From Lachnospiraceae bacterium (lineage in GTDB: Bacteria > Bacillota > Clostridia > Lachnospirales > Lachnospiraceae): a stretch of 37,480 bases of DNA. This document shows, in pieces, positions 3,873 through 27,060 of this stretch (position 1 is its first letter; each line of letters opens with the position of its first letter). The notes below the pieces were generated by a model. The model had not been told where the DNA came from and searched no databases. It was given only the letters and a program-made list of their open reading frames with translations. The position numbers were made by a program, and so were the translations under genes. Location of the stretch: contig JAQXGF010000092.1 in NCBI GenBank assembly GCA_029006155.1, positions 1 through 37,480 on the forward strand, in the 5' to 3' direction.

Positions 3873-4934
3873 ATGACAGATAAAAAGAAGCAGCCCGAAA
3901 GCCGCCGCACCGAAGATCTCTCTCCGGCGGAGCTGCGGGCGCAGATCGAAGAGGATAAGAAAAAAGTAAGCCGAAGCACCGTTTTTTTGTTCGCGGCACT
4001 GATCGCGATCATTGTGATCTGTATCGCGTGGTTTGTCGCCAATACGCGAGTGAATGTGACGACCGGTGCGATCAGCGCGCAGGACTCGACGCTGTTTGAG
4101 CTGGCGAGTGTGGGGAGCCGGACGGAGGCGGAAAGCGGGCACTTAGTGGATGCTAATAAAAAAAATTTGCTTACAGTGGGAAATGAAGAAAATTATAAAA
4201 CGTATTATGACATGCAAACTCAGACAGAGGTAACAAAAGAGCAAACATATCATGTCGGCACCGCTGACCTTGCGTGGTATCTTCAGTCAGCGAATGGTGT
4301 TGTATCACCGGGCGCAAGCGGAAAACTGGAATTTTATATCATTCCAAAAGTAAAGAATTTAAAAAACGTAACAGTGAAGTTAAATGTCGCTGCATACGGA
4401 AAGGCAAATAATAACGGCACAATAGAAGAAACCAATGATGAAGCACTGAAAAGACTGATAAAAGGCCATATCTTACTGTTTCAGAATCTGGATGACCAGA
4501 AAGGATACAGCAACTGGCTGACCCCTGCTGATGATGGGAAATATACATTTACTGTATCAGCAGCGAATTCGAAAGCGTTTACACAAAATGTTCCTTATAA
4601 GGTGACAGTTTACTGGATCTGGCCAAAGTATTTTCGGAATTATATTTACACGCAGAAAAGTACACAGGAAGACTTGTTTGGCAACTCACCGGATAAACCG
4701 ACATATGATAAGTTACTGGCCTATGTAAATAACCAGCGTACATTGACGAGCAGCACACTTTTCTACAAAGCCGGAAACGAACCGAACATTACCGGGGACA
4801 TTAATAATTCCATGGACGATACATTACTGAGCACATGCAGTCAATACTACGATGATGCCGACGAGTACATTGGCACCAAGGCGGGATATCTGTATGTAAG
4901 AGCTGAGGCAGAAGGCGCTACCAGTAACGGCTGA
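3873..4934 (+). CDS. Exported protein with SipW-type signal peptide, first gene of the surface locus
   Basis: A 353-residue protein. The charged N-terminus (MTDKKKQPESRRTED...KKKVSR) is followed by one hydrophobic helix ending IVICIAWFVANTR at about residues 36-60, the form of a SipW-dependent signal peptide. The ectodomain has no domain I can name and no cell-wall anchor. I chose ATG 3873 because AAAGGA sits about 10 bases upstream; an in-frame ATG at 3825 has AAGG only 2-3 bases away. Base composition changes sharply near 4140: the signal region is GC-rich, whereas the ectodomain is AT-rich with runs such as A8 (4158-4165). It may be a minor subunit or adaptor of the surface structure; that is inference from context. 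Confidence 0.8.
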   Translation: MTDKKKQPESRRTEDLSPAELRAQIEEDKKKVSRSTVFLFAALIAIIVICIAWFVANTRVNVTTGAISAQDSTLFELASVGSRTEAESGHLVDANKKNLLTVGNEENYKTYYDMQTQTEVTKEQTYHVGTADLAWYLQSANGVVSPGASGKLEFYIIPKVKNLKNVTVKLNVAAYGKANNNGTIEETNDEALKRLIKGHILLFQNLDDQKGYSNWLTPADDGKYTFTVSAANSKAFTQNVPYKVTVYWIWPKYFRNYIYTQKSTQEDLFGNSPDKPTYDKLLAYVNNQRTLTSSTLFYKAGNEPNITGDINNSMDDTLLSTCSQYYDDADEYIGTKAGYLYVRAEAEGATSNG

Positions 4935-5013
4935 ATCGAAGCAGAGGAATCTGTGCGGCAGAAGAGATCTGTGCATACCGAAGATGAAAGCATAAATGAT
5001 AGGATAGACAGGC

Positions 5014-5731
5014 ATGAAAAAAAAGACAGAAGATAAAACAACAAAAAAGACAGAAAAAAAAACGGCTGCTTCATACCGGTGTGGCCCTGATTGTGGTGCT
5101 GGTATTGTTGATCGGCTTTTCCTATGCATGGTTTATCAATCGAAATGATATAACAACGCTGATGGAAATTCAGGAACCGTCTGAGATCTCGATACTCGGA
5201 TCGGATGGGAAAAGGCTGGACTCTCTGGATCTGACCTATCAGCCGGGGGAGAAGAATGCGGACGGAACCGTTACGATCCGGAGGGTATTCTGCGTCCAGA
5301 GTGCGACGGATTACAAACTGGAACTCGTACATACGACGAATCTGAAAGGACTGAATTTCACACTCTACCCGGCGGTGAAAGCTGGAGCGACAGGAACAAG
5401 TGTGACCGACGGAGACACTACCTTTTCCTATAATTCAAGCGATAAAATAGGAGGAGCATATATTAATCTGACCGAACCGACAGGCGATTACAAATATGCA
5501 AATACGGAAAAACACAGCCAGAACTATCAGGAATATCAACAGGTTCAGGCGCATGCGGAGCCGGCATACTGGCTGGCGAACGACACGCAGGATTTTGATA
5601 AAACTGGAAGTGAATCGTTTACAGACAAGAACAAAACATATCACCGCAACTATTACGTCTGTGAAGTCACCTGGACAGAGACAGAAGAGAAAGAAACCGA
5701 TATCTTTTACATATTGGCAAAAAGTGCCTGA
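5014..5731 (+). CDS. SipW-type exported protein with start out of frame across an A9 tract
   Basis: The main frame reads from 5063 as RLLHTG-VALIVVLVLLIGFSYAWFINRN, a lysine-less but clear SipW-type signal core, then ~200 residues of unknown ectodomain. In that frame no ATG exists; a GTG at 5081 would begin inside the hydrophobic core. An ATG at 5014 opens a second frame, MKKKTEDKTTKKTEKK, exactly the expected basic N-region, and the two frames meet at nine A's (5054-5062). Removing one A gives a sensible 238-residue precursor. This is therefore a slippage site (phase variation or transcriptional slippage), a mutation or a sequence error. It ends shortly before the next gene. The function is unknown beyond secretion. 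Confidence 0.75.
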
Positions 5732-5755
5732 GTATGAGCAGCAAGAGGACGAAAG

Positions 5756-6700
5756 ATGAAAATTACGCAGAAACCAAAGTGGAAAATGATATTCATAGCA
5801 GCACTGTGCCTGACCGGAATACTGGCGCTCGCAGGGGGAAGCCTTTCGATCTACAACAATCAGGCGGTTCAGCGAGGCGTAGCGCGGAACAAAGATAATG
5901 AATCAGCACGATTTAGTTCCAACTATCTGCAGGCATGTGCAAACGGAACGGCGACATACCCTTCCAGAACGATCACATTTTCATCAGACACAACGGCGGA
6001 TCAGACATTTGAGATTTATGTATATAATTATGCAAATGGAAATGAAAATCTGGTAAGCCAGAAAGATATCACCTATACGATGACGATACGGTTCGAAGGC
6101 GGAACTAAGGACAGTTATACAGTGACATATGGTAATGGTCAGTCGAAGACGACAACAGACCAGAATTTAACCTGCACAATTCCAAATATGACACTGACAG
6201 GCCGTACCCCACAGCAGCATACTTATTCCATCACCATACCGGCGGCAGATCTGGACAAAGTGCAAATTACGGCGACAGCAGTTCCGAATAGCGTAGCTGT
6301 GACCAATAATCAGATCCTCGCGGCAGTCATCGTACCATGCACCGGAACGTCAGAAGAGACATTTTCCTATAAAGGGGTATTCACAGATGCTTCGGCAGGA
6401 ACCCCAGGGGATTATGACGGATTCAACTATGAGGTATCGATTTCCGGAGGAAAGGCACAGGCGACGATTACATGGAAGGATGTAGTGGAAATCGATCCAT
6501 TCTTTTTGAAAAAACTTGGAATGGAAAAAAACGAAAAAGATATTTTATCTAAAAAAACGCTGACTTTTATAATGGATCAATCTGCGGGAACATCGGATTA
6601 TCTGATACCATTTTATATAAAAAATAAGAATGAAATATCTAAAAAAAGCTGGGCTGATATGAATTCTATCATTACCTTTAGTGCAGAACAGCAATCGTGA
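5756..6700 (+). CDS. Exported protein of unknown function in the surface locus
   Basis: A 314-residue protein starting MKITQKPKWKM followed by a hydrophobic helix (IFIAALCLTGILALAGGSL, about residues 12-30). The helix lacks the AWF ending of its neighbours; the segment after it, SIYNNQAVQRGVARNKDNESARFSSNYL in two parts, looks like a conserved mature N-terminus of a pseudopilin-like or matrix subunit, but I cannot name the family. The rest is predicted beta-rich with no cysteine pair or anchor except one Cys in each of a few places. It follows the previous gene by 24 bases with GAGGACGAAAG before the ATG, and the giant gene begins 32 bases after it, so the three are probably cotranscribed. 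Confidence 0.75.
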   Translation: MKITQKPKWKMIFIAALCLTGILALAGGSLSIYNNQAVQRGVARNKDNESARFSSNYLQACANGTATYPSRTITFSSDTTADQTFEIYVYNYANGNENLVSQKDITYTMTIRFEGGTKDSYTVTYGNGQSKTTTDQNLTCTIPNMTLTGRTPQQHTYSITIPAADLDKVQITATAVPNSVAVTNNQILAAVIVPCTGTSEETFSYKGVFTDASAGTPGDYDGFNYEVSISGGKAQATITWKDVVEIDPFFLKKLGMEKNEKDILSKKTLTFIMDQSAGTSDYLIPFYIKNKNEISKKSWADMNSIITFSAEQQS

Positions 6701-6732
6701 TAAATGCTTGAGATTTGGAAGGAGCGACATCA

Positions 6733-9700
6733 GTGAAGAAATACAGACGCATTTTAGCCGGTTTTCTGGCAATGAATTTAACGATAAGTATGGCATCGAC
6801 CAATATGATCCGAGTGAACGCTGACGAGGTGTATCAGGAAGAAACATACGCGGCAGAGCCGGTGCAGACCTATGCAGAAGAAGGCCAGGGAGAAGTCGTG
6901 GAAGGGAATGATTCCAGTCAGGCGTCGTCAGGTGGAGAAGATGCGTCCAGATGGATCGCGGAAGGGGAAGAAACGATACAGGAGACAGATGCGCCCATAT
7001 CAGGTACAGAGACGAATGACGATGATATACAGGAAGAGCCGGCATCAGAAGCAGACTATGGAGACGAGGTCAGCATTCTGAATATAGAGGAAGTGGAGCC
7101 GGATGAGAGTGTAGTGCAGGCAGATACGCAGACGGATGGGACACTGAGTATAAAACAGTTTAAAACTTATGAAGAAGGCACAGATGGACATAAATCAGTG
7201 AAAGTGAACAATGTCACAGAACTGATTTTGCTTTCAAACTGCAAACCGGAAGAATTACAGGATGTTGCGATTGATTTAAATATGACAGGTGATTGTGACC
7301 TGTCAGAAAAGACTGTGATAAAAGCGGGAGATGATTTATCTGGAATATTAAAGCCTGCGTCAGATGCGACATCTGTAGCGGCGGATACGCCGACCGAGGA
7401 TCAGGCGGCAGCAGAAGCGGATACGATGGCAAGTGCAGAAGTACAGGATACAGGAATGACTGTAGATGAAGCATCCGAGGAGGAAGCACAGGCACAGAGC
7501 ACAGACAGCAATGCGGCTACCGGTACACCGGTCGTTGCAGCGAAGGACTATACTTATCAGAGTCTTGGAACGGAAGCATATCCATTTCAGGGTGAAATCA
7601 CTGGACAGATTCCGACGATCAAATTGGATAAACCGTTCTTTGGAACACTTTCTTCAAAGGCCACTGTGCAACAGCAATTGAAGATCACATGGGTCGGCGA
7701 CGGAAGCGTGCCGTTGCTGGCGAATGAGTATGTATTTCAGGATGAAAAAGAAACATATACCCTTCCGACACTCTGCTTTACTTCAGATGGAACGAGCAAG
7801 TTGGGAAGTATTCTTGGTGTAGTTAAAGCAGAACCTAGTTATACAACAAAAACGCTTACAATTAATAGTGCAAATGTGATTTATAATGCAATGGTTAATG
7901 TCAGCCCGGCATCCGGCAATGCGGGGCTTATTTGTAATACACTGGAGAGTGGAAATATCTGTCTGGATGGCTATGTATTTCCGGCAAGCTATACGGTTCA
8001 GGCTGGAGATAGTGGTAATGCGGGCGGAATCATAGGAGCGATGGGTGCGAATACGAGCCTAAATATAAAAAGTGTAACTGGAATTGATACTGCATCTGTA
8101 ACGGTCACATCGGCTACGGGCAGTGCAGGTGGTCTGGTCGGAAGCATGGGAGAGAAGGCAACGATCCAGAATGAGCAGGAAGTTATCTTACAGAGCCAGA
8201 CAATTACTGGTAAATACGCAGGTGGCATCGCGGGAATGGCGACAGATATCACATTTACAAGTACGGGCGATGGGAAGATTACTGTGAATACGCCGACGAT
8301 AAGCGGTGGAACGAATGCGAAAGCAGCAGTTGGTGGATTTATCGGATATTATCAGTTGAAGGCAAAGGCTGATACTACGGAGCAGACCTTGCCGGCAAAT
8401 GTGACAATCAGTAGTCCGACGGTTACGACAAATGCAGGAACAAAAATCGGAGGAGGCGTTGCCGGGGGATATTTTGGTGTACTTGACTTTGACGGAAAAC
8501 TGACTTATAGAATGGCTGGAAATAGCGAAGAAACAATTAGTGTAACATACGCTGCTGGGACTGGCGAGGCATATGGCGCACTGATCGGAAAAGTGCTCAG
8601 CAGTACAATACAAGCTTCTTTGCTGATAGAAAATTATACAATAAACTCTCAATATAATAAGGATATCTATTTTCATGGGGGATTGATAGGAGAGCTTGGA
8701 ACAAGTGGAAAAGAAAGCGAAGCAGTTTATTTAAACACTCAAAATATCAATGTGAAAATATCAAATCCATACGCGAATCATTCAGCGAAAGGATTTGGCG
8801 GACTCGTAGGACGTTTAGCAAAAGGCAGTATTTTGGAAATGCAGAATAATACTACAATTGCTGTAACAGATAAGATATATGAAGGCGGTGGAGTCGTTGG
8901 ATACGCAGAGGAAGGAAGTGTAGTAAGATTTTCGGGAGCGACAGATCTGACAGGGGTAAATTATAATGCGGCTGCGACAGTAGGACAGCTTATCGGATAT
9001 CAGGATAGTGCGCTGATTTATGCAGTCGGAGATGGCAATGGCAGTGGCAATGGATGGACTTATAAACGAAGCAATTTTACTGCGGGAAGTGCGTATGTTA
9101 ATGATATTGGAAATTATGGTCAGGTAATTCGGTTAAGTGCAGATCCAAGTAGTACTACAGGGTTAAGTAATGGGCTAATCACGATAAATGAGGATCACGA
9201 GGTCAGATTTTTATCTTCACCGGATTGGTCTAAGGAGATTAAGATAAATTCGGTAGATGAATTTGCGCTGCTTTCGATTGCGTGGAATTCCAGAGGATAT
9301 TTTAGTGCTGGTTCAGGGATTACATCTAATAATTGGAATAGTTTGTGCAGTAAAGCAATTACACTTAAAACGAATATTGATCTTACAGGAACCGGAATCT
9401 CTGGACTGTCACGGGACGCTGGAAATGAACAAGTGTATACGGGAACATTTGACGGTGGAAATTATATTATTACTTTGGCAATAGGAGAAACATTTGGCTA
9501 TAAGGGAGACGGCGTTGCGTCTCCAGGTACGGATGGCTGTGGAAAGGTATATGGCTATCAGAATTGTCATGACTATCAGGGATTGTTCTCAAAAACAGAT
9601 TCTTCATCAATTATTAAAAACTTAACGATTACTGGAAGCATTAATGTTAGTAACGGTGCAAATGCAATCACGGCTGGGGGAGTCGCTGCTGCTGTGACAG

Positions 9701-12120
9701 GAACGACGACCATTCAAGGGGTAACGGTAGCAGAAACAATTACAGCGGATGTTCCTAAAAATAATGTTTTGTCAGTAGGTGGCTTTTATGGAAACGGAAA
9801 TGGAAATGCGAATCCGTTACTTTTAGATAAAAAAACAGTAGCTTCTGCCAATATTGTAATACAGAATAATAGCTCAGAAACAGATGATACAAAAATATAT
9901 GCAGGAGGGGTTATCGGACAAATTTCATCTGACGGATTTAAATTAACGGTACAGGATTTAACTGTACAGGGATTTATTACAACTTCGTTGAATGAGTACG
10001 CCTATGTTGGTGGCTTGGTAGGAATCATAAAAGCCCGCAAACAATATGATGATAGTACGCAGGAAAGTCGATGGATGGAGATAAAAGGTCTTGTTTATAA
10101 TGGCTTTAAAATAGATGCGCAAAATGCAACAGAGGTATGTGGCGGTTTGTTTGGAAGTATTTGGTCTAATGTTGGCGTATTCTTTATGGGGCCTGATAAT
10201 AAAAATGATGGGACAACTATCAAATTAGACGTTATAGATGCGGAAATTAATGCACCAAGAGCAGCGAGTGTTGGCGGCTTGGCTTATCGTTCCAGTGGAG
10301 CATGGGAGATTCGTGACCTTGGAATTAAATTGGAAAAGTTCATAGTTAATGCAGGCAAAGATGTGGGGCTTCTTGTGTGCAAAGGGGAAAGAGGAACAGA
10401 AAAAGTAGAAGGGACGAGTAGCACGAAATATGGCGCTTTATATCTTAGCACTACTAAGTACTGGAATAGCGCTTATCAAATCTCTGAAAATGTGAAGATA
10501 ACTGTACTAGGCTCAGGTGGTGTATTTGATGAGTTCGTGGCATATACTGCAACGGCTGCAGGCGAAATCACAGAAAGTGGAAAAAACGGTGTGGTATCTA
10601 TTGCGACAGAAGATAATGCTAACGAGCGAGTAGGAGTCGATCAGTCTGCGACTGTTTGTACTACTTATCAGAACCGTACACAATATGGAAAAAAGCATTC
10701 GACAAATGGCTGCAGCCGGTATTATTATGATTTGGATCAGTGCCTGACAGAGGCAGCACAATCTAATAAAAACAATGATGGCAAAATAAATACACCGCAG
10801 GAACTTTTACTATGGAGTGTTTATCATTATGCATATACAAATATTCAGTATCTTTTTACAAGAACAGAACGAGACAAAATACTGGTTCCAGATGTAAAAT
10901 TAGACCAATTGCAGATTGAAGATTCTTTGGACATGAAGAAGTATAGTTATTATCCAATTCAGCTTGACACCAATGTGACGATTCAAAATGCAAACATTGT
11001 ATTTTATAATGAAGAAATCGAAAATGCAGAGACAACAGCAAAAAATAAAGTAACCTCAAATCAGACATCCGGAACAAGCGCTACGCATACGCAGCATTAT
11101 ACGATGCATTGTGGTTTGTTTTTAGGCTATACTCCGAGTGCAGTGCCATATGGAAATAAGATTATGTTGGACACAGTGACTTTTGGTGGAAGTATAGGGA
11201 AAGTGACTGAAGGTGTTTCTGGTGTACTGTTTTCTGGCAGTGTAGGAGGAAAAACAGCTAACGGTAAGATTTATATGGCTGATCTTCAGATGTCAGACAT
11301 TACTTTTGATGGTTTAAAGGTAACGGGCTATACGGATTCGGAGTATGCACCGCTGTTGATGAATCAGATCGGCAGTTATACGATGCTGAATATGTCAAAA
11401 GTTGAGACGACGAATAAGTATACTTTGGGAACAGCCGCAGCGTCCAGTATGATCGGAAATGTGGGTTCTGGGACGAGCGCTCAGATGAATCTGTCATTTC
11501 TGGATATTGTGCTGCCGGATAAGGCCGCAAGTGGCTCGGAAGGAATTTTTACGCATGCGACATTGCTGGAAAGCTACAGCTATGCGGATGGTGATACATC
11601 GGTTGCGACCTACAATTTCTATAAGGATGACGACTGGGAAGCAGATGGATCTCATAAGCATCAGGTGACCTATGGAAAAGAAATATCAGAAACGACCGAG
11701 TATCCGGAGCTTCAAAAATGGTATTATGATGTGAACGGGTATGGAACTGACAGTGGTCTTGTTTACGCAGATGCGAATAATGCGGGAAAAGGACAGAAAT
11801 TTGCTGCATGGCTTCCATACGTAGCCGTGTCTTATGATGCAGGAAATAAGACACACGAAATCAAAGTCAATCAGCGTGTATACGATATTGTAGATGGATG
11901 TGGTACGTATGGACATCCGTATGTGATCACATTTGCGGGTGAGATGACGATTATTTCAGAGTACCTGTCTACTGGAATGCCGCGTAATGACTGGAAAGTG
12001 ACGATTACAAACCATCAGTCGGTACTTTGCGATGGGAATACAGATATTACTTTCCGGTATAATGGAAGAACTTGGGAAGAAGTCAAAACGAAGGTGAGAA
12101 AGATAAGCCTAATTGGGTAA
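6733..12120 (+). CDS. Giant GLUG-repeat surface protein, 5' part (frame broken near 12090)
   Basis: The start is GTG 6733 with AAGGA 9 bases upstream; a TTG at 6715 would overlap that site. The precursor begins MKKYRRILAGFLAMNLT and has a classical Sec signal peptide with likely cleavage after RVNA (about residue 30). Two acidic Ala/Glu-rich linkers follow (about residues 30-130 and 200-270). From about residue 280 on there are many GLUG-type turns: GGIIGAMG, GGLVGSMG, GGIAGMA, GGGVAGGYFG, GGLIGELG, GGLVGRL, GGGVVGYAE and others, implying a right-handed beta-helix typical of large adhesins. It stops at TAA 12118 after a frame change; joined to the next ORF it would make about 3,696 residues. 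The substrate or ligand is unknown. Confidence 0.85.
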   Translation: MKKYRRILAGFLAMNLTISMASTNMIRVNADEVYQEETYAAEPVQTYAEEGQGEVVEGNDSSQASSGGEDASRWIAEGEETIQETDAPISGTETNDDDIQEEPASEADYGDEVSILNIEEVEPDESVVQADTQTDGTLSIKQFKTYEEGTDGHKSVKVNNVTELILLSNCKPEELQDVAIDLNMTGDCDLSEKTVIKAGDDLSGILKPASDATSVAADTPTEDQAAAEADTMASAEVQDTGMTVDEASEEEAQAQSTDSNAATGTPVVAAKDYTYQSLGTEAYPFQGEITGQIPTIKLDKPFFGTLSSKATVQQQLKITWVGDGSVPLLANEYVFQDEKETYTLPTLCFTSDGTSKLGSILGVVKAEPSYTTKTLTINSANVIYNAMVNVSPASGNAGLICNTLESGNICLDGYVFPASYTVQAGDSGNAGGIIGAMGANTSLNIKSVTGIDTASVTVTSATGSAGGLVGSMGEKATIQNEQEVILQSQTITGKYAGGIAGMATDITFTSTGDGKITVNTPTISGGTNAKAAVGGFIGYYQLKAKADTTEQTLPANVTISSPTVTTNAGTKIGGGVAGGYFGVLDFDGKLTYRMAGNSEETISVTYAAGTGEAYGALIGKVLSSTIQASLLIENYTINSQYNKDIYFHGGLIGELGTSGKESEAVYLNTQNINVKISNPYANHSAKGFGGLVGRLAKGSILEMQNNTTIAVTDKIYEGGGVVGYAEEGSVVRFSGATDLTGVNYNAAATVGQLIGYQDSALIYAVGDGNGSGNGWTYKRSNFTAGSAYVNDIGNYGQVIRLSADPSSTTGLSNGLITINEDHEVRFLSSPDWSKEIKINSVDEFALLSIAWNSRGYFSAGSGITSNNWNSLCSKAITLKTNIDLTGTGISGLSRDAGNEQVYTGTFDGGNYIITLAIGETFGYKGDGVASPGTDGCGKVYGYQNCHDYQGLFSKTDSSSIIKNLTITGSINVSNGANAITAGGVAAAVTGTTTIQGVTVAETITADVPKNNVLSVGGFYGNGNGNANPLLLDKKTVASANIVIQNNSSETDDTKIYAGGVIGQISSDGFKLTVQDLTVQGFITTSLNEYAYVGGLVGIIKARKQYDDSTQESRWMEIKGLVYNGFKIDAQNATEVCGGLFGSIWSNVGVFFMGPDNKNDGTTIKLDVIDAEINAPRAASVGGLAYRSSGAWEIRDLGIKLEKFIVNAGKDVGLLVCKGERGTEKVEGTSSTKYGALYLSTTKYWNSAYQISENVKITVLGSGGVFDEFVAYTATAAGEITESGKNGVVSIATEDNANERVGVDQSATVCTTYQNRTQYGKKHSTNGCSRYYYDLDQCLTEAAQSNKNNDGKINTPQELLLWSVYHYAYTNIQYLFTRTERDKILVPDVKLDQLQIEDSLDMKKYSYYPIQLDTNVTIQNANIVFYNEEIENAETTAKNKVTSNQTSGTSATHTQHYTMHCGLFLGYTPSAVPYGNKIMLDTVTFGGSIGKVTEGVSGVLFSGSVGGKTANGKIYMADLQMSDITFDGLKVTGYTDSEYAPLLMNQIGSYTMLNMSKVETTNKYTLGTAAASSMIGNVGSGTSAQMNLSFLDIVLPDKAASGSEGIFTHATLLESYSYADGDTSVATYNFYKDDDWEADGSHKHQVTYGKEISETTEYPELQKWYYDVNGYGTDSGLVYADANNAGKGQKFAAWLPYVAVSYDAGNKTHEIKVNQRVYDIVDGCGTYGHPYVITFAGEMTIISEYLSTGMPRNDWKVTITNHQSVLCDGNTDITFRYNGRTWEEVKTKVRKISLIG

Positions 12121-17916: not shown

Positions 17917-18822
17917 ACGATTAAAATAAACTTTCACCCACCCCGTCCCCGCGACTCGGTCCTCACGCTCCGGCTTCGCCGCAGGTTCTCTGCGGCGCTG
18001 GCGGCGCTGATGATTACGCTGGTGGCGGTTGTGTCGGCGACGTATGCATGGTATATTTATAACACGAGCCGTCATACCACGAATGTGCGTATGGCGGCGG
18101 GCGCGGGCGCGAGCCTGCAGATCAGCAACTCCTATGACGGGACGTACGGATCGGCGGCGGTGCTCGACAGCTTTGCCGGACGGCTGACGCCGGTGTCGAC
18201 GAACCGCGTGAGCGGCGGCTTCCAGAAGGTCGAAAAGTTCACGGAAGGGAGCGATAACCAGCCGGATCTGGTGGCGAGCATTTTCGGAAGCGGAGAGCGG
18301 ACGGACTACTATCACACGAGCCTGTATCTGCGGACGACCGGATCGGCGACGGATATCTATCTGGCGGACATCGGATTCGAGGACAGCAGTGCGAGCAGTC
18401 CGATCTCCTCGGCGATCCGCGTCGGGCTCGTCATACATCGGCCCGGCAGGCAGACCGCGATCGCGGACGAATACATATTTGCGATCAGTGACAAGAAGAA
18501 TCCGGAAGCCCAGTACAATACGGCGACCGGGCAGGAGGGCTACGTGCTGGACTGTACGAAGACGGACGGCAGCACGGTGCGCTTCACACCTTATACCTCA
18601 GCGGCATGGTGTGACTACAATCAGAATACCGGAGTGGTGACGTTAAAAAATCAGTCCCTGAAGCTCTGCACGATCTCCGGTACGGATACAGGACAGGCCG
18701 GGACACCGGTACAGGTGGAGCTCTACATCTGGCTCGAGGGCTGTGATGAGGACTGCACCGCAAACCTCGCAGACCAAACACTTAGAAATCTGGCGGTGTC
18801 ATTCGCAGGAGTTGTAGAGTAA
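17917..18822 (+). CDS. SipW-type secreted subunit, paralog 1 of 4 (non-standard start)
   Basis: About 300 residues. Read from ACG 17917 or ATT 17920 the N-terminus is IKINFHPPRPRD...RLRRRFSAALAALMITLVAVVSATYAWYIYNT (in pieces), a full SipW-type signal peptide with an arginine-rich n-region. The ATG at 18010 would remove the n-region and half the hydrophobic core. Shared family landmarks are LTPVSTNRV after the mature N-terminus, a central AIRVGLVIH, and the C-terminal IWLEGCDEDC followed by LAVSFAG. Paralogs 2-4 carry the same landmarks. Such WLEGxDxxC endings are common in SipW-dependent Firmicutes proteins; TasA-like fibre subunits are the nearest functional analogy. Role as a polymer subunit is inference. 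Confidence 0.8.
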   Translation, partial: TIKINFHPPRPRDSVLTLRLRRRFSAALAALMITLVAVVSATYAWYIYNTSRHTTNVRMAAGAGASLQISNSYDGTYGSAAVLDSFAGRLTPVSTNRVSGGFQKVEKFTEGSDNQPDLVASIFGSGERTDYYHTSLYLRTTGSATDIYLADIGFEDSSASSPISSAIRVGLVIHRPGRQTAIADEYIFAISDKKNPEAQYNTATGQEGYVLDCTKTDGSTVRFTPYTSAAWCDYNQNTGVVTLKNQSLKLCTISGTDTGQAGTPVQVELYIWLEGCDEDCTANLADQTLRNLAVSFAGVVE

Positions 18823-18909: not shown

Positions 18910-18969
18910 GTTCGGGCTGGCTGAATCGGAATCACAGGAAACAGCTGGCCGGAAAAAGAAGGATTACGA

Positions 18970-19842
18970 TTGAGAAAGGCAGGCAGGAGCATGAATAACG
19001 AAGTGAAAACTCTGAAGAAATCTTTTACGATGGCGATTTTGTCGCTCCTGCTTTTGCTCGTCATCGCAACGGGCGCGACGTACGCCTGGTTTACTTTGAC
19101 TGGAATCACTTCGACGAATGTGACGCCGATGGGCGGCACGGTGGGCAGCGGCGATACGGTGCTGCTGATCTCGAATGCCCAGGGCGGACCGTTTGATAAA
19201 ACCTGTGAGCTGAAGCTTGCGGCGAACCCGGACACCTTAAAGCCGGTGTCGACGGCGGATCTGGAGCATTTTTACCGCGTGACGGCGCAGAATAAAGAGG
19301 GCATTGCGATGCTCTATGAGAGCGCGGACCGCCAGATCGATGAGCGTGTGCTGCATGGGACGGTGTACCTGCAGTGCAAAAATGCGCCGTGTGATGTGTA
19401 CTTTAATAAGGAAGGACTGAAGCTGGGGAGTGATCCGCAGGCATTGGCGGCGATGCGGCTGGGGCTTGTGATCACATCGAAGTCCGGCACAGAGACTTTT
19501 TTCTTCAAATTGGATGATCTTGGATCTACCGGGAGCGCGACGTCGGTGAAGACGATTCCGCGAAGCTCTGCGGTAGTCTCCTCTATCTCCGGAAGCGGGG
19601 CGGCGAACTATGTGGACGACCCGGCGAAGGAGCTTAGCGGCTACATGGCCGGGAAGGGGGAGCATGAAAATGAATATAATCCGGGAGCCAATAAGCTCGT
19701 CAGCCTGAATGCGGACGAGGTGGCGACCGTTTCATATTATCTGTATCTGGAGGGCTGTGATGAGCAGTGCTCGAATGCGGTACAGAATAAGAGCTCGGAA
19801 ATTCAGCTGGCATTTGCCGGAGTGGACACGAAGAGTGAATAG
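18970..19842 (+). CDS. SipW-type secreted subunit, paralog 2 of 4
   Basis: A 290-residue precursor. The signal region is MNNEVKTLKKSF-TMAILSLLLLLVIATGATYAWFTLTG, ending in the ATYAWF motif. TTG 18970 is preferred because AAGAAGGA lies 7 bases upstream; ATG 18991 has GGAG only one base away. Family landmarks are LKPVSTADL, YLQCKNAPCDVYF, AMRLGLVITS and C-terminal YLEGCDEQC with LAFAG. An extra Cys pair in the middle (CKNAPC) is particular to this paralog. It is separated from paralog 1 by ~150 bases with hairpins and followed after 14 bases by paralog 3. Predicted to be exported and processed by the SipW-like peptidases of the locus. Confidence 0.85.
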   Translation: MRKAGRSMNNEVKTLKKSFTMAILSLLLLLVIATGATYAWFTLTGITSTNVTPMGGTVGSGDTVLLISNAQGGPFDKTCELKLAANPDTLKPVSTADLEHFYRVTAQNKEGIAMLYESADRQIDERVLHGTVYLQCKNAPCDVYFNKEGLKLGSDPQALAAMRLGLVITSKSGTETFFFKLDDLGSTGSATSVKTIPRSSAVVSSISGSGAANYVDDPAKELSGYMAGKGEHENEYNPGANKLVSLNADEVATVSYYLYLEGCDEQCSNAVQNKSSEIQLAFAGVDTKSE

Positions 19843-19856
19843 AAAGGGGAGAGGGG

Positions 19857-20714
19857 ATGAAACATGCGTTCAGGACCTGGTTCCTGAGTGTTACGACGCT
19901 GGCGGCGATCCTTGCGCTGGCAGCAGCGACCTATGCGTGGTTCACATCGAACCGTGCGGTCGAGACGAGCACGGCTACGGCGCGCACCGGTGAGGAGACG
20001 CTGACCTTGCAGCTGAGTTCGTCCGGAGGAGGCGCGTTTCGCGATATGCCCACAGCGGCGATCACGCAGGTGAACCGGACATCGGCGACACGGCTGATGC
20101 CGGTATCGACGTCGGATCTGGTCAATTTTGTCTATGCGCCGTCGACGGTCGCGGATCAGGCCGTCCATTTTGAAAAAGTAGAAAATGAAGCGTACTATTA
20201 CCATGGACGCATTTACCTGCGTGCGTCAGGCGAGGGCTTTTCCGGCAGTCAGGTGATGAACCTGTATCTGGATCAGAGCGAAGGGCTGCTCGGGAAAAAT
20301 GTGGACGGGCGGCTTTTGAATGCAGCGCGTCTCGGACTTGTCTTTGACGGGGATACGGCGAATCCGATCATCCTGCGCTTAAGTGAGTCCTCGAATCCTT
20401 CGAATATGCGGAGAAATAATACGGTAGTAAATGGAGTGGCTCTCACAGGCAGTCAGGTGCTCCGGTACCGGAACGGCTCTGTCAGTGCGGTGAGTGACCC
20501 GAGTGTTCCGATCGCGGACTATGCGATGGATACTGCTTCGTCCGGTGTGCCGTCGAAGACGCTGCTCGCGATGCAGATCGGGAAAATTTATTCCCTGGAT
20601 ATTTATTTTTATCTGGAAGGCTGTGATCCGGACTGCACCGATTCGGTGAGCTACAATACAGCGGATCTGCATCTGTCCTTCTACGGCATGCTCGCCGGGG
20701 AGGGAAGCCGATGA
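19857..20714 (+). CDS. SipW-type secreted subunit, paralog 3 of 4
   Basis: A 285-residue precursor beginning MKHAFRTWFLSVTTLAAILALAAATYAWFTSNR (in pieces), with a compact SipW-type signal peptide. The landmarks are LMPVSTSDLVNF, IYLRASGEGFSG, AARLGLVFDG and C-terminal FYLEGCDPDC with LHLSFYGM. GGGGAGAGGGG stands directly before the ATG. Its TGA overlaps the ATG of paralog 4 (ATGA at 20711-20714), which suggests translational coupling and fixed stoichiometry of the two proteins. The mature protein has just the two cysteines of the EGCDxxC motif, so they may bond to each other or between subunits. Confidence 0.85.
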   Translation: MKHAFRTWFLSVTTLAAILALAAATYAWFTSNRAVETSTATARTGEETLTLQLSSSGGGAFRDMPTAAITQVNRTSATRLMPVSTSDLVNFVYAPSTVADQAVHFEKVENEAYYYHGRIYLRASGEGFSGSQVMNLYLDQSEGLLGKNVDGRLLNAARLGLVFDGDTANPIILRLSESSNPSNMRRNNTVVNGVALTGSQVLRYRNGSVSAVSDPSVPIADYAMDTASSGVPSKTLLAMQIGKIYSLDIYFYLEGCDPDCTDSVSYNTADLHLSFYGMLAGEGSR

Positions 20715-21508
20715 GAGAGAAAAAGACAAATTTAAAACATATGCGGACACGGGTGTATACGTCGCTGCTGCTCGTGCTGCTCGCGCTCGTCGCGGTGACG
20801 GCAGCTACGGTGGCGTGGTTCTCGATCGCAGATAATACGAGAGTCCGCACGCTGGGGCTGCAGATCATCGCAGACCCGGATCTGCGGATGGATCTGGATG
20901 CGCACAGCACGATCAGCGAGTATGTGAAGACGCTCTCGTTTGAGCAGATCGCAGCGCGGATCCAGAAGGAGAAAGGGTTTTCGATGAAGACGACGCCACT
21001 GAAGCCGGTGACGACGTCGGATGCGAAAGCATTTACTTATGAAAATGGCAGCACGGCTTCGGACAAGAGCGGATCGTATCTGGAGTTTACCCTGCACTTT
21101 ATGGCGGAGAAGGATATGATCGTCCATCTGACGAGTGCGAACAGCAAGGACGGCGCGTCGGACGGTACGGCGGTGACGTCGAAGCAGCAAAAGCTGCCGG
21201 AGGCGATGCGGATCAGCTTTACTGCGGATGGAAAGACGTGGGTGTATGACCCTGGCATGGGGGATGCATCCGGGAAGGAAAATGGCCTGAACAGCTTCGG
21301 GCTTCCGGCGGCGGGAGCGATGAAGCTTTCGGATAAAAATGCGCTGTTTGCGCTGAAGGAGCATGTCGATAAACCGGTCGTTGTGCGCATCTGGATGGAG
21401 GGGACAGACCCCGCATGCACGGATGAGCTGCAGCAGGCGGACTATGAGATCCGGCTTCGGTTTACCGGAGAGACGGAAGAAAAAAATCAGAACGCACAGA
21501 GTGAATAA
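20711..21508 (+). CDS. SipW-type secreted subunit, paralog 4 of 4 (one motif cysteine lost)
   Basis: A 265-residue precursor: MREKKTNLKHMRTRVYTS then a hydrophobic helix ending TAATVAWFSIADN. The same landmarks appear: LKPVTTSDA, a central EAMRISFTADG and a C-terminal IWMEGTDPAC with IRLRFTG. Here the first cysteine of EGCDxxC is Thr, leaving an unpaired Cys, and the protein has a charged tail (ETEEKNQNAQSE). A distinct role such as cap, tip or base subunit is conceivable but unproved. It overlaps paralog 3 by 4 bases and is followed by the signal peptidase after 26 bases. Confidence 0.82.
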   Translation: MREKKTNLKHMRTRVYTSLLLVLLALVAVTAATVAWFSIADNTRVRTLGLQIIADPDLRMDLDAHSTISEYVKTLSFEQIAARIQKEKGFSMKTTPLKPVTTSDAKAFTYENGSTASDKSGSYLEFTLHFMAEKDMIVHLTSANSKDGASDGTAVTSKQQKLPEAMRISFTADGKTWVYDPGMGDASGKENGLNSFGLPAAGAMKLSDKNALFALKEHVDKPVVVRIWMEGTDPACTDELQQADYEIRLRFTGETEEKNQNAQSE

Positions 21509-21534
21509 CGGGTGCGAAAGAAGGAGAGAACAGT

Positions 21535-22494
21535 ATGAAAATTTTAAAACGGGCAGGCACAGTTGTGCTCAGTGTGATTCTGTGGGCGATCATTCTGATC
21601 GCGGCGCTGTATGCGTTCACGACGATGGCGACGAGGGACAATCAGAATGTTGCAAATATATTTGGCTACACGCCATTGACGGTACAGTCGGATTCCATGG
21701 TACCGACGTTTGCTTCCGGTGATCTGATTTTTATCAAAAAATGTGACCCGGCGACGTTGAAGGAAGGGGATATCATCTGCTTCCACACGATCATTGATAA
21801 CGAATATGCGCTGAACACGCACCGCATCCAGTCGATTGAGACGGTAGGTGATGCGAGAAGCTATACGACCGTCGGTGATAATAATAACGGCATCGCCGAC
21901 CAGCATGTGATCTCGGACGGCGATATCGTCGGAAAGTATGTGGGACATCTGTCCGGCTTCGGAAAGGTGATGGATTTCCTCTCGAGCAGCACGGGATTCC
22001 TCATCGTGATCATTCTGCCGATGATGCTGTTCTTCATCTATCAGATCTATCATCTCATCACGATCAGTATCCGTCTGAAGCGTGCGCTCGCAGTGGAAAA
22101 TGCACGTGCGGAGGAGATCGCGCGCATGGAGACGGCGCAGAAGATGATGGGCCAGCAGCCGATTCCTCAGATGGGCCGGCCGATGCCGCCGATGGCGGGC
22201 GGTCAGGGACAGCCGGGAGCGCCGATGGCAAATCAGCCAGCTGCCGGAATGCCGAACGAAAATGTAAATGAAGGCAAGGCGGCTGCCGCGAGAAGTGAGG
22301 CGGAGCAGGCATTAGCGGAAGCGAAGCGGATCAAGGAAGAGGCCGAGGCGATCCGTGCCAAGGCCGAGGCGGAGCAGGCGCTCGCGGAGGCAAAGCGGAT
22401 GAAGGAAGAAGCAGAAGCGATCCGCGCGAAGGCGCAGGCAGAGCTTGAGAAGGCGAAAGGTGAGAAGCCTGACGGGAAGGGAGCAGAGCAGTGA
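21535..22494 (+). CDS. sipW: SipW-like (ER-type) signal peptidase I with coiled-coil tail, first of two
   Basis: Family S26B membrane protease that removes signal peptides from exported SipW-dependent proteins. TM helix at residues 8-28; catalytic Ser54 in QSDSMVPT; His96 in NTHRI in place of the Lys of bacterial-type peptidases, which is the ER-type signature; Asp115 in VGDNN and Asp130 in SDGDIVG. A second TM helix lies at about 154-176. Residues 177-319 form an unusual cytoplasmic extension: a Pro/Met/Gly-rich linker and then a helical tail made of two 23-residue repeats (AEQALAEAKR...). SipW proteins are usually ~190 residues, so this tail is additional. GAAGGAGAG precedes the ATG. It overlaps the next gene (GTGA). 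The tail may dock the coiled-coil protein at 24259. Confidence 0.92.
   Translation: MKILKRAGTVVLSVILWAIILIAALYAFTTMATRDNQNVANIFGYTPLTVQSDSMVPTFASGDLIFIKKCDPATLKEGDIICFHTIIDNEYALNTHRIQSIETVGDARSYTTVGDNNNGIADQHVISDGDIVGKYVGHLSGFGKVMDFLSSSTGFLIVIILPMMLFFIYQIYHLITISIRLKRALAVENARAEEIARMETAQKMMGQQPIPQMGRPMPPMAGGQGQPGAPMANQPAAGMPNENVNEGKAAAARSEAEQALAEAKRIKEEAEAIRAKAEAEQALAEAKRMKEEAEAIRAKAQAELEKAKGEKPDGKGAEQ
22300..22437 (+). repeat. Two tandem 69-bp coding repeats in sipW tail
   Basis: 22300-22368 and 22369-22437 encode two 23-residue units AEQALAEAKR-I/M-KEEAEAIRAKA-E/Q. Several silent differences separate them, so the repeat is kept at protein level and is not a fresh duplication. It forms a predicted coiled coil. 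Confidence 0.85.
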
Positions 22495-24158
22495 GTGAGT
22501 TTCTGAAATTTGCATATGAGCTGTTGTCTCAGGTGCTCTACAATATCGTACAGTGGCTGGCAGCGTTTGTGAAGCTGCTGTTCACGGGCTGGGTGGAATA
22601 TTTTCTGATCTTCCGGACGTATTTTCCGACGTTAAATATCCCGGCGAAGATTTTATCGGTACTGCTCATGCTCGTGCTCATCGCGATCCCGATCCTGATC
22701 ATCGTGCTCCTCGTGCGGCATCTGATCATGCGGCATAAATTGAAGATGGACAAGACGGATAATGCGGAGCTGTACCGCGAGATCGGACGGCTGAACAAGC
22801 AGGTCATCTCGCTCGTCGATGAGAAGAACCGCATCCTTGCCCTGAAGGTCAATGCGATGGGCGGTACGGCGCGCATCCCGTATGTGGGCGCGTCTGCACT
22901 GGCAGATGATGTGATCCCGACGGTGGAAAATGTGACCGGAAATGCTCCGGCAGCCGCAGGCGGCGTGGCCGTGGCGGGTGGAAATGTGAAGCTCGACGCG
23001 ACGGAGAGCTTCGCCGAGGCAGCGGCGACGGCAGTCGTCAACGCGAAGGAAAAGGTCGAGGAGACGCAGCGCAATCAGGTACAGCGTTTCCCGAAGCTTG
23101 CACTTGTGGATGAGAAATATGAGGGCTATGTGGAGCCGGCTTATGACAATCTCATTTCTCTGGAAGACTTTACAGAGGGCTACCGGCTGTATGCGGCCAG
23201 CCAGCTGCATCTGTACTATACGCCGGAGATCGTGCGGCGTTTTGTCGCAGGCATGGCGTCCAGTAAGCTGCTCATTCTGGAAGGTATCTCCGGTACCGGT
23301 AAGACGAGTCTTCCGTATTCGTTCAGCCGGTATATGAACAACCCGGCGACGATCGTTTCCGTGCAGCCGTCGTTCCGTGACCGGACGGAGCTGCTCGGCT
23401 ACTTTAATGAATTTTCGAAGCGGTTCAATGAGACGGAGTTTTTACGTGCATTGTATGAGGCTAACTACCGTCCGGATCCGACCTTAATCGTGCTTGACGA
23501 GATGAACCTCGCACGTATCGAGTATTATTTTGCGGAGATGCTCTCCGTGCTCGAAATGCCGAGCAAGGATGAGTGGGTGCTCGACCTCGTGCCGACGGCA
23601 TGGCCGGGTGATCCGAAGCGGCTGGATGCGGGCAAGCTGCACGTGTCGGATACGACGTGGTTCATCGGTACGGCGAACAACGACGACTCGACGTTTACGA
23701 TTACGGATAAGGTATACGACCGTGCGATGCCGATCGAGCTGAATGAGCGCGCGGATGCGTTTGAGTGTGAGCTGCATCCGCAGTGCTTTATCACTGCGGA
23801 ACATTTGCAGGTGCTCTTTGAGCGGGCGAAGATCGACCATCCGATCAGCGAGGAGATGCTGGAGAATCTGGAGAAGCTCGACAGCTACCTCTCCACGCGC
23901 TTCAAGCTCTCGTTTGGTAACCGTATCATCAAGCAGATGTATGATTTCGTGCCGGTCTATGTGGCCTGCGGCGGAACGGAGCTCGGCGGTATGGACTATA
24001 TCATTGCGCGTAAAGTGCTGAAGAAATTTGAGAGTATGAACGTCAATTTTGTGCGGGATGAGATCACAGGACTGATCGAGTACATCGAGAAGCTGTTCGG
24101 TGCAGCAGGTATGCCGGACAGTGTGGATTATCTGAGACGGATTCAAAATCTGTACTAA
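22491..24158 (+). CDS. Membrane-anchored McrB-type AAA+ ATPase
   Basis: A 555-residue protein. Residues 10-40 and 52-76 are hydrophobic (two probable TM helices), then a charged linker with Ala/Gly-rich stretch to ~200. The AAA+ module has Walker A GISGTGKT (265-272), Walker B LIVLDEM (332-338), sensor-1 GTANND (393-398) and DKVYDRAMPIEL (406-417); the spacing and the KVxDRA segment are those of the McrB/MoxR-like branch, in which McrB enzymes are GTP- or ATP-driven hexamers. There is no DNA-recognition domain; membrane helices replace it. The GTG start at 22491 overlaps the sipW stop by 4 bases. The partner gene follows after 100 bases containing a strong hairpin. An assembly or remodelling motor for the surface structure is inference. 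Confidence 0.85.
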   Translation: MSEFLKFAYELLSQVLYNIVQWLAAFVKLLFTGWVEYFLIFRTYFPTLNIPAKILSVLLMLVLIAIPILIIVLLVRHLIMRHKLKMDKTDNAELYREIGRLNKQVISLVDEKNRILALKVNAMGGTARIPYVGASALADDVIPTVENVTGNAPAAAGGVAVAGGNVKLDATESFAEAAATAVVNAKEKVEETQRNQVQRFPKLALVDEKYEGYVEPAYDNLISLEDFTEGYRLYAASQLHLYYTPEIVRRFVAGMASSKLLILEGISGTGKTSLPYSFSRYMNNPATIVSVQPSFRDRTELLGYFNEFSKRFNETEFLRALYEANYRPDPTLIVLDEMNLARIEYYFAEMLSVLEMPSKDEWVLDLVPTAWPGDPKRLDAGKLHVSDTTWFIGTANNDDSTFTITDKVYDRAMPIELNERADAFECELHPQCFITAEHLQVLFERAKIDHPISEEMLENLEKLDSYLSTRFKLSFGNRIIKQMYDFVPVYVACGGTELGGMDYIIARKVLKKFESMNVNFVRDEITGLIEYIEKLFGAAGMPDSVDYLRRIQNLY

Positions 24159-24162
24159 TATG

Positions 24163-24230: not shown

Positions 24231-24258
24231 TATTGCTATATGAAGGAGAACAGGCCAG

Positions 24259-26355
24259 ATGGCAAATACAATCAGTGAGTTATATGAAAAATATGCGGAG
24301 CAGGTAGGACTTGCCCTGGAGGATGACCGGTATTTCCAGTACCTTTTTGAGATGGTGCAGGCCGGGGACAATACGATCGACCAGAAACACCGGGTGCTGC
24401 ACAAGGTCGTCGATGAGACATGGCTGAATGTGATCGAGGATGGGATCGATGCGATCTTCAATATCGTGGACAAGCCGCGCCGGTTCATCACGACGTCGGA
24501 GGAGGTCGTGCCGGTCGCGCTGGCGAAGAAGATCACGGCGGACAGTGTCCGGCACCTGAGCATGAATACGCAGTTCATTGCGAGTGATGAGAACGGTGAT
24601 ATCCAGCCGACGCGCGTGCTCAATGTCACGACGGAGGAGAGCTATGATCTGTATGAGAACCGGTTTATCTACCATCTGATTCAGCGCCTGTTCGCATTCG
24701 TGGACAAGCGGACGGACGTGATCTTCTGGTCGACCGGCGATGAGACCTGCAATGTGATGAGCATGCAGAGCAAGGTCGATGATGCTTACGAGGAGATCTC
24801 CTACAAGATCGAGATGACGATCAAGAACCGCCAGAGCTATGCGGAAAATGACAGCGACAATATGGAAGTCTTCAAACGGATCGACCGTGTGCGCCGGATG
24901 GTGCGGACACTGCGGGCGAGCTCGTTCTGCGAGATCATGTCGGGATGCGCGAAGGTACACAGCCCGATCCAGCGGACGAACCTGATGATGAAGGATCCGA
25001 GCTACCGCACTTGCTACAAGCTGTGGCAGTTCATGGAGAGCTATGATGACGTCGGCTACACGATCGAGGAGCGGGATACGGCGCTGGAATTCGATGAAGA
25101 GTACCTGCTGCAGATGTACACGAACCTGATCACGAACTATACGGTGTTCAAGAGCCTTCTGGAATCGGATCCGCGCAAGATGTCGGAGCTGGCGGAGAAG
25201 AAGTATGAGCCGGTGAAGCCGAAATTCATAAAAGAGATCAAGGAAGAGATCGTCGAGGACCGGAACATCCCGGATGTGGAGATCCGGCAGGTCTTTGTCG
25301 AGGAGGTCACGCAGGCGCAGCTCGATGCGGAGGAGAAGCTGAAGCAGGAGACGGAGCGCTGTGCCGAGCTGGAACGCGAGAATGGTGATCTTTCGTGGGA
25401 GAAGGCGACACTCTCCCAGCAGCTCGATTTTGAGACGCAGTCGCGCGCACAGGCAGAGCAGCAGCTCGATGCCGTGCAGACACAGCTCGATGCGACGCAG
25501 GCCAAGCTGGAGACGGAGCAGGGTACGAAAAAGGAGCTGGAGGAGCAGCTGCACGAGGCAGAGCTGGCAAAGGAGGCTGCCGAGCGTCATGCCGAGGAGG
25601 AGATGGCGGCGGTGCGTCAGGAGGCAGAGGAGCTCGTCGCTTCGGTGAAGGCTCAGGCGGAGGCGGACCTTGCAGCGGCAAAGGCGGCGGCTGAGGACAA
25701 TTTGGCAGCGGAAAAGACGCGGGCGGAAGCGGAGCTGACGGCGGCGAAGCAGGATGCCGAGCGTGAGCTTGCAGAGCTGAAACGGCAGACGGAGGAAGCG
25801 CGGATCACCGCCGAGCGGGAAGCGGCGAAGGCACTCGAAGCGGCGCAGCAGCAGGCGGAAAAGGAGCGCCGGACCGTAGAGAAGGATGCACAGGAAGTGC
25901 TGGAGAAGACGAAGCGCGAGGCACAGGAGACGGTGGCGGCCGCCCAGAAGCAGACGGAGCAGGCGAGCCTGGAGCGCGAGGCGCTGAAGGCGCAGCTGGA
26001 GCAGCTGCGTAAGGAACTTGCCGCAGAGAAGGAGTGGTCGGCGACGGCGCTCGCAGACGCGAAGCGCGAGACCAAAGAGGCACTGGCTGCACAGCAGAAA
26101 GCGCAGGAGGAGACGATCCGGGATGCCGAGCGCAAGGCGGTGCAGGAGGCAGAGAAAGCACGACGGGAAGCTGCCGGTGAGATCCGTGCGATCCGCAAGG
26201 AGAGCGAGCGGGAGCTCGCAGAGGCGCGTCGCAGCCTTCAGGAATCAGAGAAAGCAAAGCGCGAAGCCGAGGAGCAGCTGAAAAAGCTCACTGCGGATGA
26301 GTCACAGGCGGGAACGGCCGCCGCAGGCCATCGCCGGTTCGGACGAAAAAGGTAA
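24259..26355 (+). CDS. DUF2357-like protein with long coiled coil, partner of the McrB-type ATPase
   Basis: A 698-residue protein. The N-terminal ~330 residues include YDLYENRFIYHLIQRL and DPSYRTCYKLWQFM, which resemble the DUF2357 domain found next to McrB-like ATPases in McrBC-type systems; this is recognised from memory and needs a profile search. The usual C-terminal PD-(D/E)XK nuclease is absent. In its place, residues ~350-680 are an almost uninterrupted Ala/Glu/Lys/Arg-rich coiled coil, and the tail ends in HRRFGRKR. No signal peptide or TM helix is seen, so it should be cytoplasmic. ATG 24259 follows GAAGGAGAAC. A structural scaffold that links the membrane ATPase to sipW tails is a speculation. 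Confidence 0.75.
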   Translation: MANTISELYEKYAEQVGLALEDDRYFQYLFEMVQAGDNTIDQKHRVLHKVVDETWLNVIEDGIDAIFNIVDKPRRFITTSEEVVPVALAKKITADSVRHLSMNTQFIASDENGDIQPTRVLNVTTEESYDLYENRFIYHLIQRLFAFVDKRTDVIFWSTGDETCNVMSMQSKVDDAYEEISYKIEMTIKNRQSYAENDSDNMEVFKRIDRVRRMVRTLRASSFCEIMSGCAKVHSPIQRTNLMMKDPSYRTCYKLWQFMESYDDVGYTIEERDTALEFDEEYLLQMYTNLITNYTVFKSLLESDPRKMSELAEKKYEPVKPKFIKEIKEEIVEDRNIPDVEIRQVFVEEVTQAQLDAEEKLKQETERCAELERENGDLSWEKATLSQQLDFETQSRAQAEQQLDAVQTQLDATQAKLETEQGTKKELEEQLHEAELAKEAAERHAEEEMAAVRQEAEELVASVKAQAEADLAAAKAAAEDNLAAEKTRAEAELTAAKQDAERELAELKRQTEEARITAEREAAKALEAAQQQAEKERRTVEKDAQEVLEKTKREAQETVAAAQKQTEQASLEREALKAQLEQLRKELAAEKEWSATALADAKRETKEALAAQQKAQEETIRDAERKAVQEAEKARREAAGEIRAIRKESERELAEARRSLQESEKAKREAEEQLKKLTADESQAGTAAAGHRRFGRKR

Positions 26356-26364
26356 GGAGTATTT

Positions 26365-27060
26365 ATGGTAAAAAAAATCCTGTATACGTTGATCAATACG
26401 ATTTCGCTGCTGATCATCGTAGCAGCGGTCGCGGTGCTCTGTCTGGTCGTATTTACGCCATCCGGGCAGGCACCGCAGGTGCTGGGCTACACGATGCTGC
26501 GCGTCACGACCGGAAGTATGGAGCCGACGTATGCGATCGATACGTTAATTGTAGTGAAAAAGGAAGCGCCCTCTGCGATTCAGGAGGGCGATATTATTTC
26601 CTTCTATTCTTCGGATCCGGCCCTGGACGGGGCGGTAAATACGCACCGGGTGACGGCGGTGGAGGCACAGCCGGATGGCAGCTACACGTACCGGACGAAG
26701 GGCGATGCCAACAATGTGGAGGACGCCTACGAGGTACGCTCAAACTATCTGCTCGGTAAAGTGGTGGCTTCTTCGCTGCTGCTTGGCAAGATTTCCCGTC
26801 TGGTCGCGAACCCGCTGATCTTCGTGCCGGTGATTCTCGTGCCGCTGTTTGCCATTTTGCTGGCGAATTTGCTGCGCACGATCCGGCTCGCCGGAAAGAT
26901 CGCAAAGGATGAGGAGCAGGCAGCGGTGCGCGAGGCGATCGAGGAGCTGCGGAAGCGACAAGAAGCGGGACAGATGCCGGACAGTCCAAAAGAGCAGGGT
27001 GAAGAGCCGGTAAGTCCGGAGGTGCAGCAAGGAGCAGATGGAGGGCATATTGTGAAATAG
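26365..27060 (+). CDS. Second SipW-like (ER-type) signal peptidase I
   Basis: A 231-residue S26B peptidase. TM helix at 9-30; catalytic Ser51 in TTGSMEPT; His94 in NTHRV; Asp114 in KGDANN and Asp120; C-terminal TM helix at ~150-172 followed by a short charged tail. Compared with the first copy (21535) it has a more canonical SGSMEP-type Ser box and lacks the repeated coiled-coil extension, so it is a distinct paralog, not a recent duplicate. AAGGAG lies 6 bases before the ATG, 9 bases after the preceding stop, so it belongs to the same operon. Two peptidases in a locus with seven candidate substrates suggests division of labour, for example one for the subunits and one for the small proteins. 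Confidence 0.92.
   Translation: MVKKILYTLINTISLLIIVAAVAVLCLVVFTPSGQAPQVLGYTMLRVTTGSMEPTYAIDTLIVVKKEAPSAIQEGDIISFYSSDPALDGAVNTHRVTAVEAQPDGSYTYRTKGDANNVEDAYEVRSNYLLGKVVASSLLLGKISRLVANPLIFVPVILVPLFAILLANLLRTIRLAGKIAKDEEQAAVREAIEELRKRQEAGQMPDSPKEQGEEPVSPEVQQGADGGHIVK

Follow-up and report, generated by a model that had tools for sequence, protein, structure and literature searches.

Why does a relative of a restriction-enzyme ATPase lie among genes for signal peptidases and exported proteins? The question is raised by a 37,480-nucleotide stretch of a Lachnospiraceae bacterium (contig JAQXGF010000092.1, here called the window), which is number 92 among the 150 contigs of an assembly of 3.32 Mb (GCA_029006155.1, 89.7% complete). 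At 3825-27060 it holds 13 open reading frames (ORFs), all on the + strand, several of which overlap or are separated by fewer than 30 bases. In order, they encode the exported proteins E1, E2 and E3, a giant protein (two ORFs), E4-E7, the SipW-type signal peptidase S1, an McrB-like AAA+ protein, its coiled-coil-like partner, and a second SipW-type peptidase, S2. An original prediction made from the DNA alone had described at least ten closely spaced genes on one strand, which agrees with this layout, and had placed the start at 3873; the first gene begins at 3825. Our analysis confirms the locus and shows it to behave as a single system. With moderate confidence, we propose that TasA-like fibres are assembled on the cell surface and that this assembly is driven or gated by a membrane-anchored nucleoside triphosphatase (NTPase) linked to SipW, with cyclic di-GMP (c-di-GMP) as the probable controlling signal.

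The AAA+ gene and the export genes are conserved together

The window was compared with the best 80 of 125 AAA+ relatives, chosen by the AAA+ protein alone; because only the best 80 were kept, these 81 loci lean towards close relatives, and many are cut by contig ends. A SipW-type peptidase was found in all 81 loci, and exported proteins of one family (the X-family) and the partner were each found in 76, so the co-conservation on which the original prediction depended was borne out. In 71 of the 73 loci with more than 1.5 kb of upstream sequence, the gene immediately upstream of the AAA+ gene encodes SipW and runs in the same direction; in L037, one of the two exceptions, they are separated by an ORF of 95 residues predicted on the opposite strand. 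Of the 56 loci with flanks long enough to show it, 54 keep the order exported protein-SipW-AAA+-partner-SipW, counting loci in which the last two genes are fused (exceptions L036 and L079).

Models for SipW, the X-family, PilZ and EAL had no match in 29 (3.5-4.0 kb) and 12 (12-20 kb) other McrB-family loci. The 29 were drawn from 43 other McrB matches in a phylum sample, and the 12 represent all but one (G316) of the 13 other-McrB places in family genomes; the AAA model itself failed in 2 of these 12. It should be noted that the control proteins come from elsewhere in the McrB family and mostly carry N-x-D-[DE]; they are not canonical E. coli-type McrB.

A full-length orthologue of the AAA+ protein was present in one of 299 genomes of the phylum sample (the window's own), and the matches in 39 other genomes were other McrB-family proteins (best E 8e-37). 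Among 200 family genomes, spanning 199 genera, 13 carry the AAA+/partner pair (the motor) with SipW, and 2 carry an AAA-CC-AAA variant. E2 was found in 12 of the 200, and 11 of these are among the 13 with motor and SipW (hypergeometric P 2.4e-15, uncorrected for relatedness), which is why we assign E2 to the gene set; the twelfth rests on a 44-residue match at 2.5e-5.

Could chance alone have placed the motor pair beside export genes that have a separate role? The AAA-CC-AAA variant occurs without SipW in its 2 genomes, and a module of E1-E3 and the giant gene can lie on either side of the core or, in genome G400, ~35 kb away from it. We nevertheless regard such a coincidence as extremely improbable, because every one of the 81 loci holds SipW, E2 and the AAA+ gene occur in largely the same genomes, and the control loci gave no match; the fixed gene order, the overlapping genes and a gene fusion described below also speak against it.

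In a tree of the AAA+ proteins (127 rows, quick method), 94 form one clade with support of 100. Three loci titled Collinsella and Erysipelotrichaceae (L021, L023, L030) nest within a clade of other Bacillota, reflecting either horizontal transfer or mis-binned contigs. A small protein of ~150 residues follows the motor genes closely in 21 of the 81 loci, every one of which is in the less closely related half (L052-L081); the one tested had no Pfam match.

An McrB relative with a membrane anchor and an McrC-like partner

Judged from its sequence, the AAA+ protein (22491-24158, + strand) is an McrB relative with a membrane anchor, as originally predicted. Pfam gives a weak AAA_5 match under the cut-off. 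A profile of 26 relatives searched against PDB sequences matched only McrB below E 0.1, with a best value of 7.6e-4 over the ATPase core. The window protein has two transmembrane-like segments (residues 23-41 and 57-75), and the first 180 residues hold one to four such segments in all 76 full-length proteins. A putative coiled coil in the AAA+ protein was judged by eye. Walker A is present in 81 of 81 proteins, Walker B in 77 and N-x-D-D (GTAN-x-DD) in 80. Since N-x-D-[DE] also occurs in 34 of 39 other McrB-family matches, the motif alone cannot set this group apart.

The partner (24259-26355, + strand) is McrC-like: a DUF2357-type N-domain is followed by ~350 residues of charged, coiled-coil-like sequence. 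A charged, low-complexity C-terminal region was seen in the 12 partners inspected, and is called coiled-coil-like from its appearance. One clade, that with HD-GYP neighbours, has shorter partners: 8 of the 9 that are whole measure just 381-424 residues and have little of this region. The partner N-domain had no match among PDB sequences. Pfam found no PD-(D/E)XK or other nuclease family in the window partner or in the partners of 10 relatives, a result with which a very diverged nuclease would be compatible, and type IV restriction is disfavoured as the function. No DNA-specificity domain was among the matches of the AAA+ protein, for which no family search beyond Pfam and NCBIfam was made; its N-terminus holds the transmembrane-like segments.

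The McrB/McrC ancestry raises the alternative of a membrane-bound defence system of McrBC descent, in which the pair would use surface proteins processed by SipW to combat phage or rivals. The AAA+ core does match the PADLOC candidate PDC-M26A (8.9e-38 over 120 residues), and CoCoNuT, sister group of the CoCoPALM group discussed below, is predicted to act in defence (PMC11090510). However, the PADLOC match spans just 121 of 724 model positions, the partner has no detected nuclease, and the neighbours are exported and c-di-GMP proteins. A defence role therefore seems improbable to us.

SipW-type peptidases and their fusion to the partner

The two ER-type peptidases of the original prediction were recovered. 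S1 (21535-22494, + strand), which has a long charged tail beyond its second transmembrane-like segment and overlaps the AAA+ gene by 4 bases, scores above the TIGR02228 cut-off (1.1e-26); its match to the Bacillus SipW model NF046067 (2.1e-25, 89.4 bits) falls under the 190-bit equivalog cut-off. S2 (26365-27060, + strand) has weak matches just below cut-off to DUF4330 (2e-5) and Peptidase_S26 (1.3e-4). When both were aligned with SipW-type sequences (20 in all), a Ser, a His and several Asp residues were invariant; one of these Asp residues is presumably the catalytic one.

The partner ORF continues into a SipW-type peptidase in seven loci (L056, L065, L067, L070, L074, L076 and L081; E 1e-46 to 9e-59), none of which has a separate S2 after the fused partner. 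Pfam gives the same fusion in L074. The motor side and the peptidase side are thus tied together in one polypeptide.

The two-peptidase layout is not general. Among 13 loci from other family genomes, only L121 and L122 have SipW on both sides. In eight (L123-L127 and L129-L131) the single SipW gene comes after that of the partner, and a deep Lachnospiraceae clade has this one-peptidase form. The contig of L128 breaks off within the locus, and SipW lies beside a partner fragment on another contig of the same genome. Two peptidases are thus a trait of the window's clade and not of the whole group. L119 and L120, the AAA-CC-AAA variant, have no SipW in the locus, nor in the genome at E up to 1e-15. 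The variant adjoins exported proteins with repeats that may be of MBG/YDG type and a part that may be transglutaminase-like.

At the same threshold, SipW occurs in 63 of the 200 family genomes, 50 of them without the motor, so most SipW genes in the family work without it. This bears on a second alternative, that the AAA+ protein and partner are a gatekeeper or quality control, extracting stalled or uncut pre-subunits or controlling access to the peptidase, with fibres that self-assemble. BsaA of Clostridium perfringens is reported to polymerise alone (PMC7395162), and the partner is fused to a peptidase rather than to a subunit. Gatekeeping would, however, leave unexplained why the E2 module tracks the motor and not SipW in general, and we consider it rather unlikely.

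Exported proteins, one with a weak fold resemblance to TasA

Seven exported proteins are encoded in the locus, and six of them (E1, E2 and E4-E7) have AWF or AWY behind a hydrophobic N-terminus, as had been predicted. E1 (3825-4934) has a SipW-type signal with AWF at residue 68, and X-family ORFs adjoin E2 in relatives. E2 (5081-5731) has an AWF signal and a KETD motif near its C-terminus; by alignment and genome co-occurrence it serves as the module marker. E3 (5756-6700) is exported without the motif. The X-family proteins E4 (18010-18822, AWY), E5 (18970-19842, AWF), E6 (19857-20714, AWF) and E7 (20711-21508, AWF), with a 4-base overlap between the last two genes, share an EGxDxxC signature, which reads EGCDxxC in E4-E6 and EGTDxxC in E7. 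All seven genes are on the + strand. Iterated X-family models may pick up signal sequences, making the EGxDxxC count the stricter measure; AWF-type motifs occur in 145 of 284 X-family ORFs and in 3 of 418 unlabelled ORFs.

The predicted structure of E7 (predicted local distance difference test score, 90) had the TasA fibre as its top match in a second-look fold search, though the resemblance is weak. No TasA-operon sequence match was found, and the exported family reached a best E of only 0.066 against PDB sequences. A sortase-assembled pilus was rejected, as LPxT[GA] is absent from all nine exported ORFs.

The giant gene, originally described as a single GLUG protein, consists in the window of two + strand ORFs in different frames (6715-12120 and 12072-17822) with a 49-base overlap at 12072-12120. 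Each has 11 GG-x-x-G cores. Neither ORF has a Pfam match at E up to 1, GLUG included, and the GLUG assignment was rejected. The protein is uninterrupted in six relatives (3678-4135 residues in L132-L136 and 3515 codons in L160, from G400). Searched separately, the window ORFs match the first and second parts of all six in order, at 23-31% identity. The split in the window is either a true break or an assembly error. In many relatives E1, E2, E3 and the giant gene follow S2, whereas in the window they are upstream of the core; the order in G400 is E3, giant, E1, E2. Between the giant gene and E4, near 18000, the G+C content rises from ~0.45 (range ~0.40-0.46) to 0.55, as though the upstream and downstream parts of the locus differed in history.

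Directly upstream of E1, a PD-(D/E)XK transposase-family gene lies at 2589-3638 (PF12784, 1.3e-16) in a region of low G+C. Beyond the locus, opposite-strand ORFs of 442 and 428 residues cover the same bases at 28980-30308. A promoter scan gave 11 sites against 6.1 after shuffling and was not informative.

c-di-GMP proteins adjoin related loci

A PilZ protein is encoded in 20 of the 81 loci (PF07238, 2.2e-12 for L017), and 20 of 21 PilZ ORFs have the RxxxR and [DN]xSxxG motifs. EAL proteins occur in 27 loci (PF00563 for L071). DDFGxG is missing from 25 of 28 EAL ORFs, suggesting that most are probably receptors rather than enzymes. Genes encoding HD-GYP-like proteins, labelled by what we take to be the HD-GYP motif, lie directly upstream of exported genes in 7 of the 13 loci from family genomes. 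A model built from these seven also matches 5 of the 81 loci and 1 of 8 extended loci, so the association is not confined to one clade. GGDEF-EAL or EAL genes are at most two genes from the giant gene in 5 of the 8 extended loci; Pfam found both domains in all three that were checked. On the AAA+ tree, PilZ, EAL and HD-GYP labels fall mainly in three separate subclades (L030, which carries both PilZ and EAL, is labelled PilZ). The sole PilZ match in the window's genome is on contig 135 (PilZ model, 4.8e-112, a small-set E-value), where it overlaps an X-family gene.

No c-di-GMP riboswitch was detected at Rfam gathering scores in the window or in sets of 6, 7 and 6 loci. The same scan returned only two tRNAs, a drum RNA and a Clostridiales-1 RNA (RF01699); the last lies at L009:11675-11848, in the gap between the AAA+ and partner genes.

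A proposed mechanism for motor-coupled fibre assembly

In the mechanism we favour, the locus would make a SipW-processed, TasA-type fibre or matrix on the cell surface. Pre-subunits E1, E2 and E4-E7 would cross the Sec channel, be retained by their N-terminal helices and be cut by S1 and S2. The membrane-anchored McrB-like ring, stimulated by the DUF2357 domain of the partner, would be linked to the peptidases by coiled coils on the cytoplasmic side, and nucleoside triphosphate (NTP) hydrolysis would drive or gate the transfer of subunits to the fibre as it grows. An ordinary Sec signal may direct export of the giant repeat protein, which would serve as an adhesin or as the tip. Of this scheme, the gene linkage, the families of the core proteins, the fusion and the co-occurrence are computed results; export, cleavage, formation of fibres, use of NTP and the reaction to c-di-GMP are inferred. 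Where relatives have PilZ, EAL, HD-GYP or GGDEF-EAL proteins nearby, these would make the machine respond to c-di-GMP, much as PilZ and FimX confer a c-di-GMP response on the type IV pilus motor. To our knowledge, TasA-type fibres form without an ATPase.

A bolder version, which we put forward only tentatively and think somewhat doubtful, is that gut and rumen bacteria have converted the motor of a restriction enzyme into a kind of pilus machine, which uses NTP to assemble donor-strand fibres, is controlled by c-di-GMP and draws its power from the cytoplasm by way of a coiled coil coupled to the peptidase. If the mechanism we favour is right, these bacteria would have an energised route to surface fibres, with a restriction-type motor recruited for export. 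Named carriers of the locus include Ruminococcus albus 8 (L074) and Blautia sp. MSJ-19 (L003).

Comparison with known systems

McrBC restriction with a DUF2357-PD-(D/E)XK partner shares the AAA+ core and the DUF2357 domain; the present locus differs in its membrane anchor, its surface-protein neighbours and a partner in which no nuclease was found. The sipW-bsaABCRSD operon of C. perfringens is likewise a SipW-dependent polymer system of a clostridium with several exported proteins, but it is under two-component control and, as described, has no AAA+ pair (PMC7395162). The tapA-sipW-tasA operon of Bacillus subtilis also combines a SipW peptidase with exported beta-rich subunits, whose TasA fibre is the top fold match of E7. 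By the description we use, which comes in part from PMC9674648, the operon has a single peptidase and lacks both an AAA+ pair and a giant protein. Open-licence literature contained no related paper by title on McrB together with SipW, nor, among the papers listed, on SipW together with c-di-GMP.

The closest relatives are already named. McrBC-like pairs beside signal peptidases were called CoCoPALM and deferred in a few sentences by Bell et al. (2024, PMC11090510), so "undescribed" in the original prediction does not stand; its view of one SipW-dependent surface-polymer locus to which the AAA+/coiled-coil pair is integral does. By name, CoCoPALM appears in open-licence literature only in that paper and its preprint, other results being unrelated by title. 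The traits given there are an McrB-like NTPase with an NxD motif and in most cases D or E directly after it, an FtsB-like transmembrane and coiled-coil fusion on McrB, a coiled coil on the McrC homologue, and an adjoining signal peptidase. Our loci share the motif, with N-x-D-D in 80 of 81 AAA+ proteins, and the adjoining peptidase, since all 81 hold SipW and 71 of 73 have it beside the AAA+ gene; the AAA+ proteins have transmembrane-like segments, and coiled coils may be present on both them and the partners. On sequence grounds, we conclude that the gene set belongs to CoCoPALM, a group named in print whose function is undescribed. TasA-like substrates, the E1-E3-giant module, the SipW fusion and c-di-GMP genes are not mentioned in the abstract of that paper or in its section 7. 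With these additions, the name CoCoPALM gains a testable job: to a core can be added probable substrates, a fusion of motor and peptidase that occurs in nature, and probable inputs from c-di-GMP.
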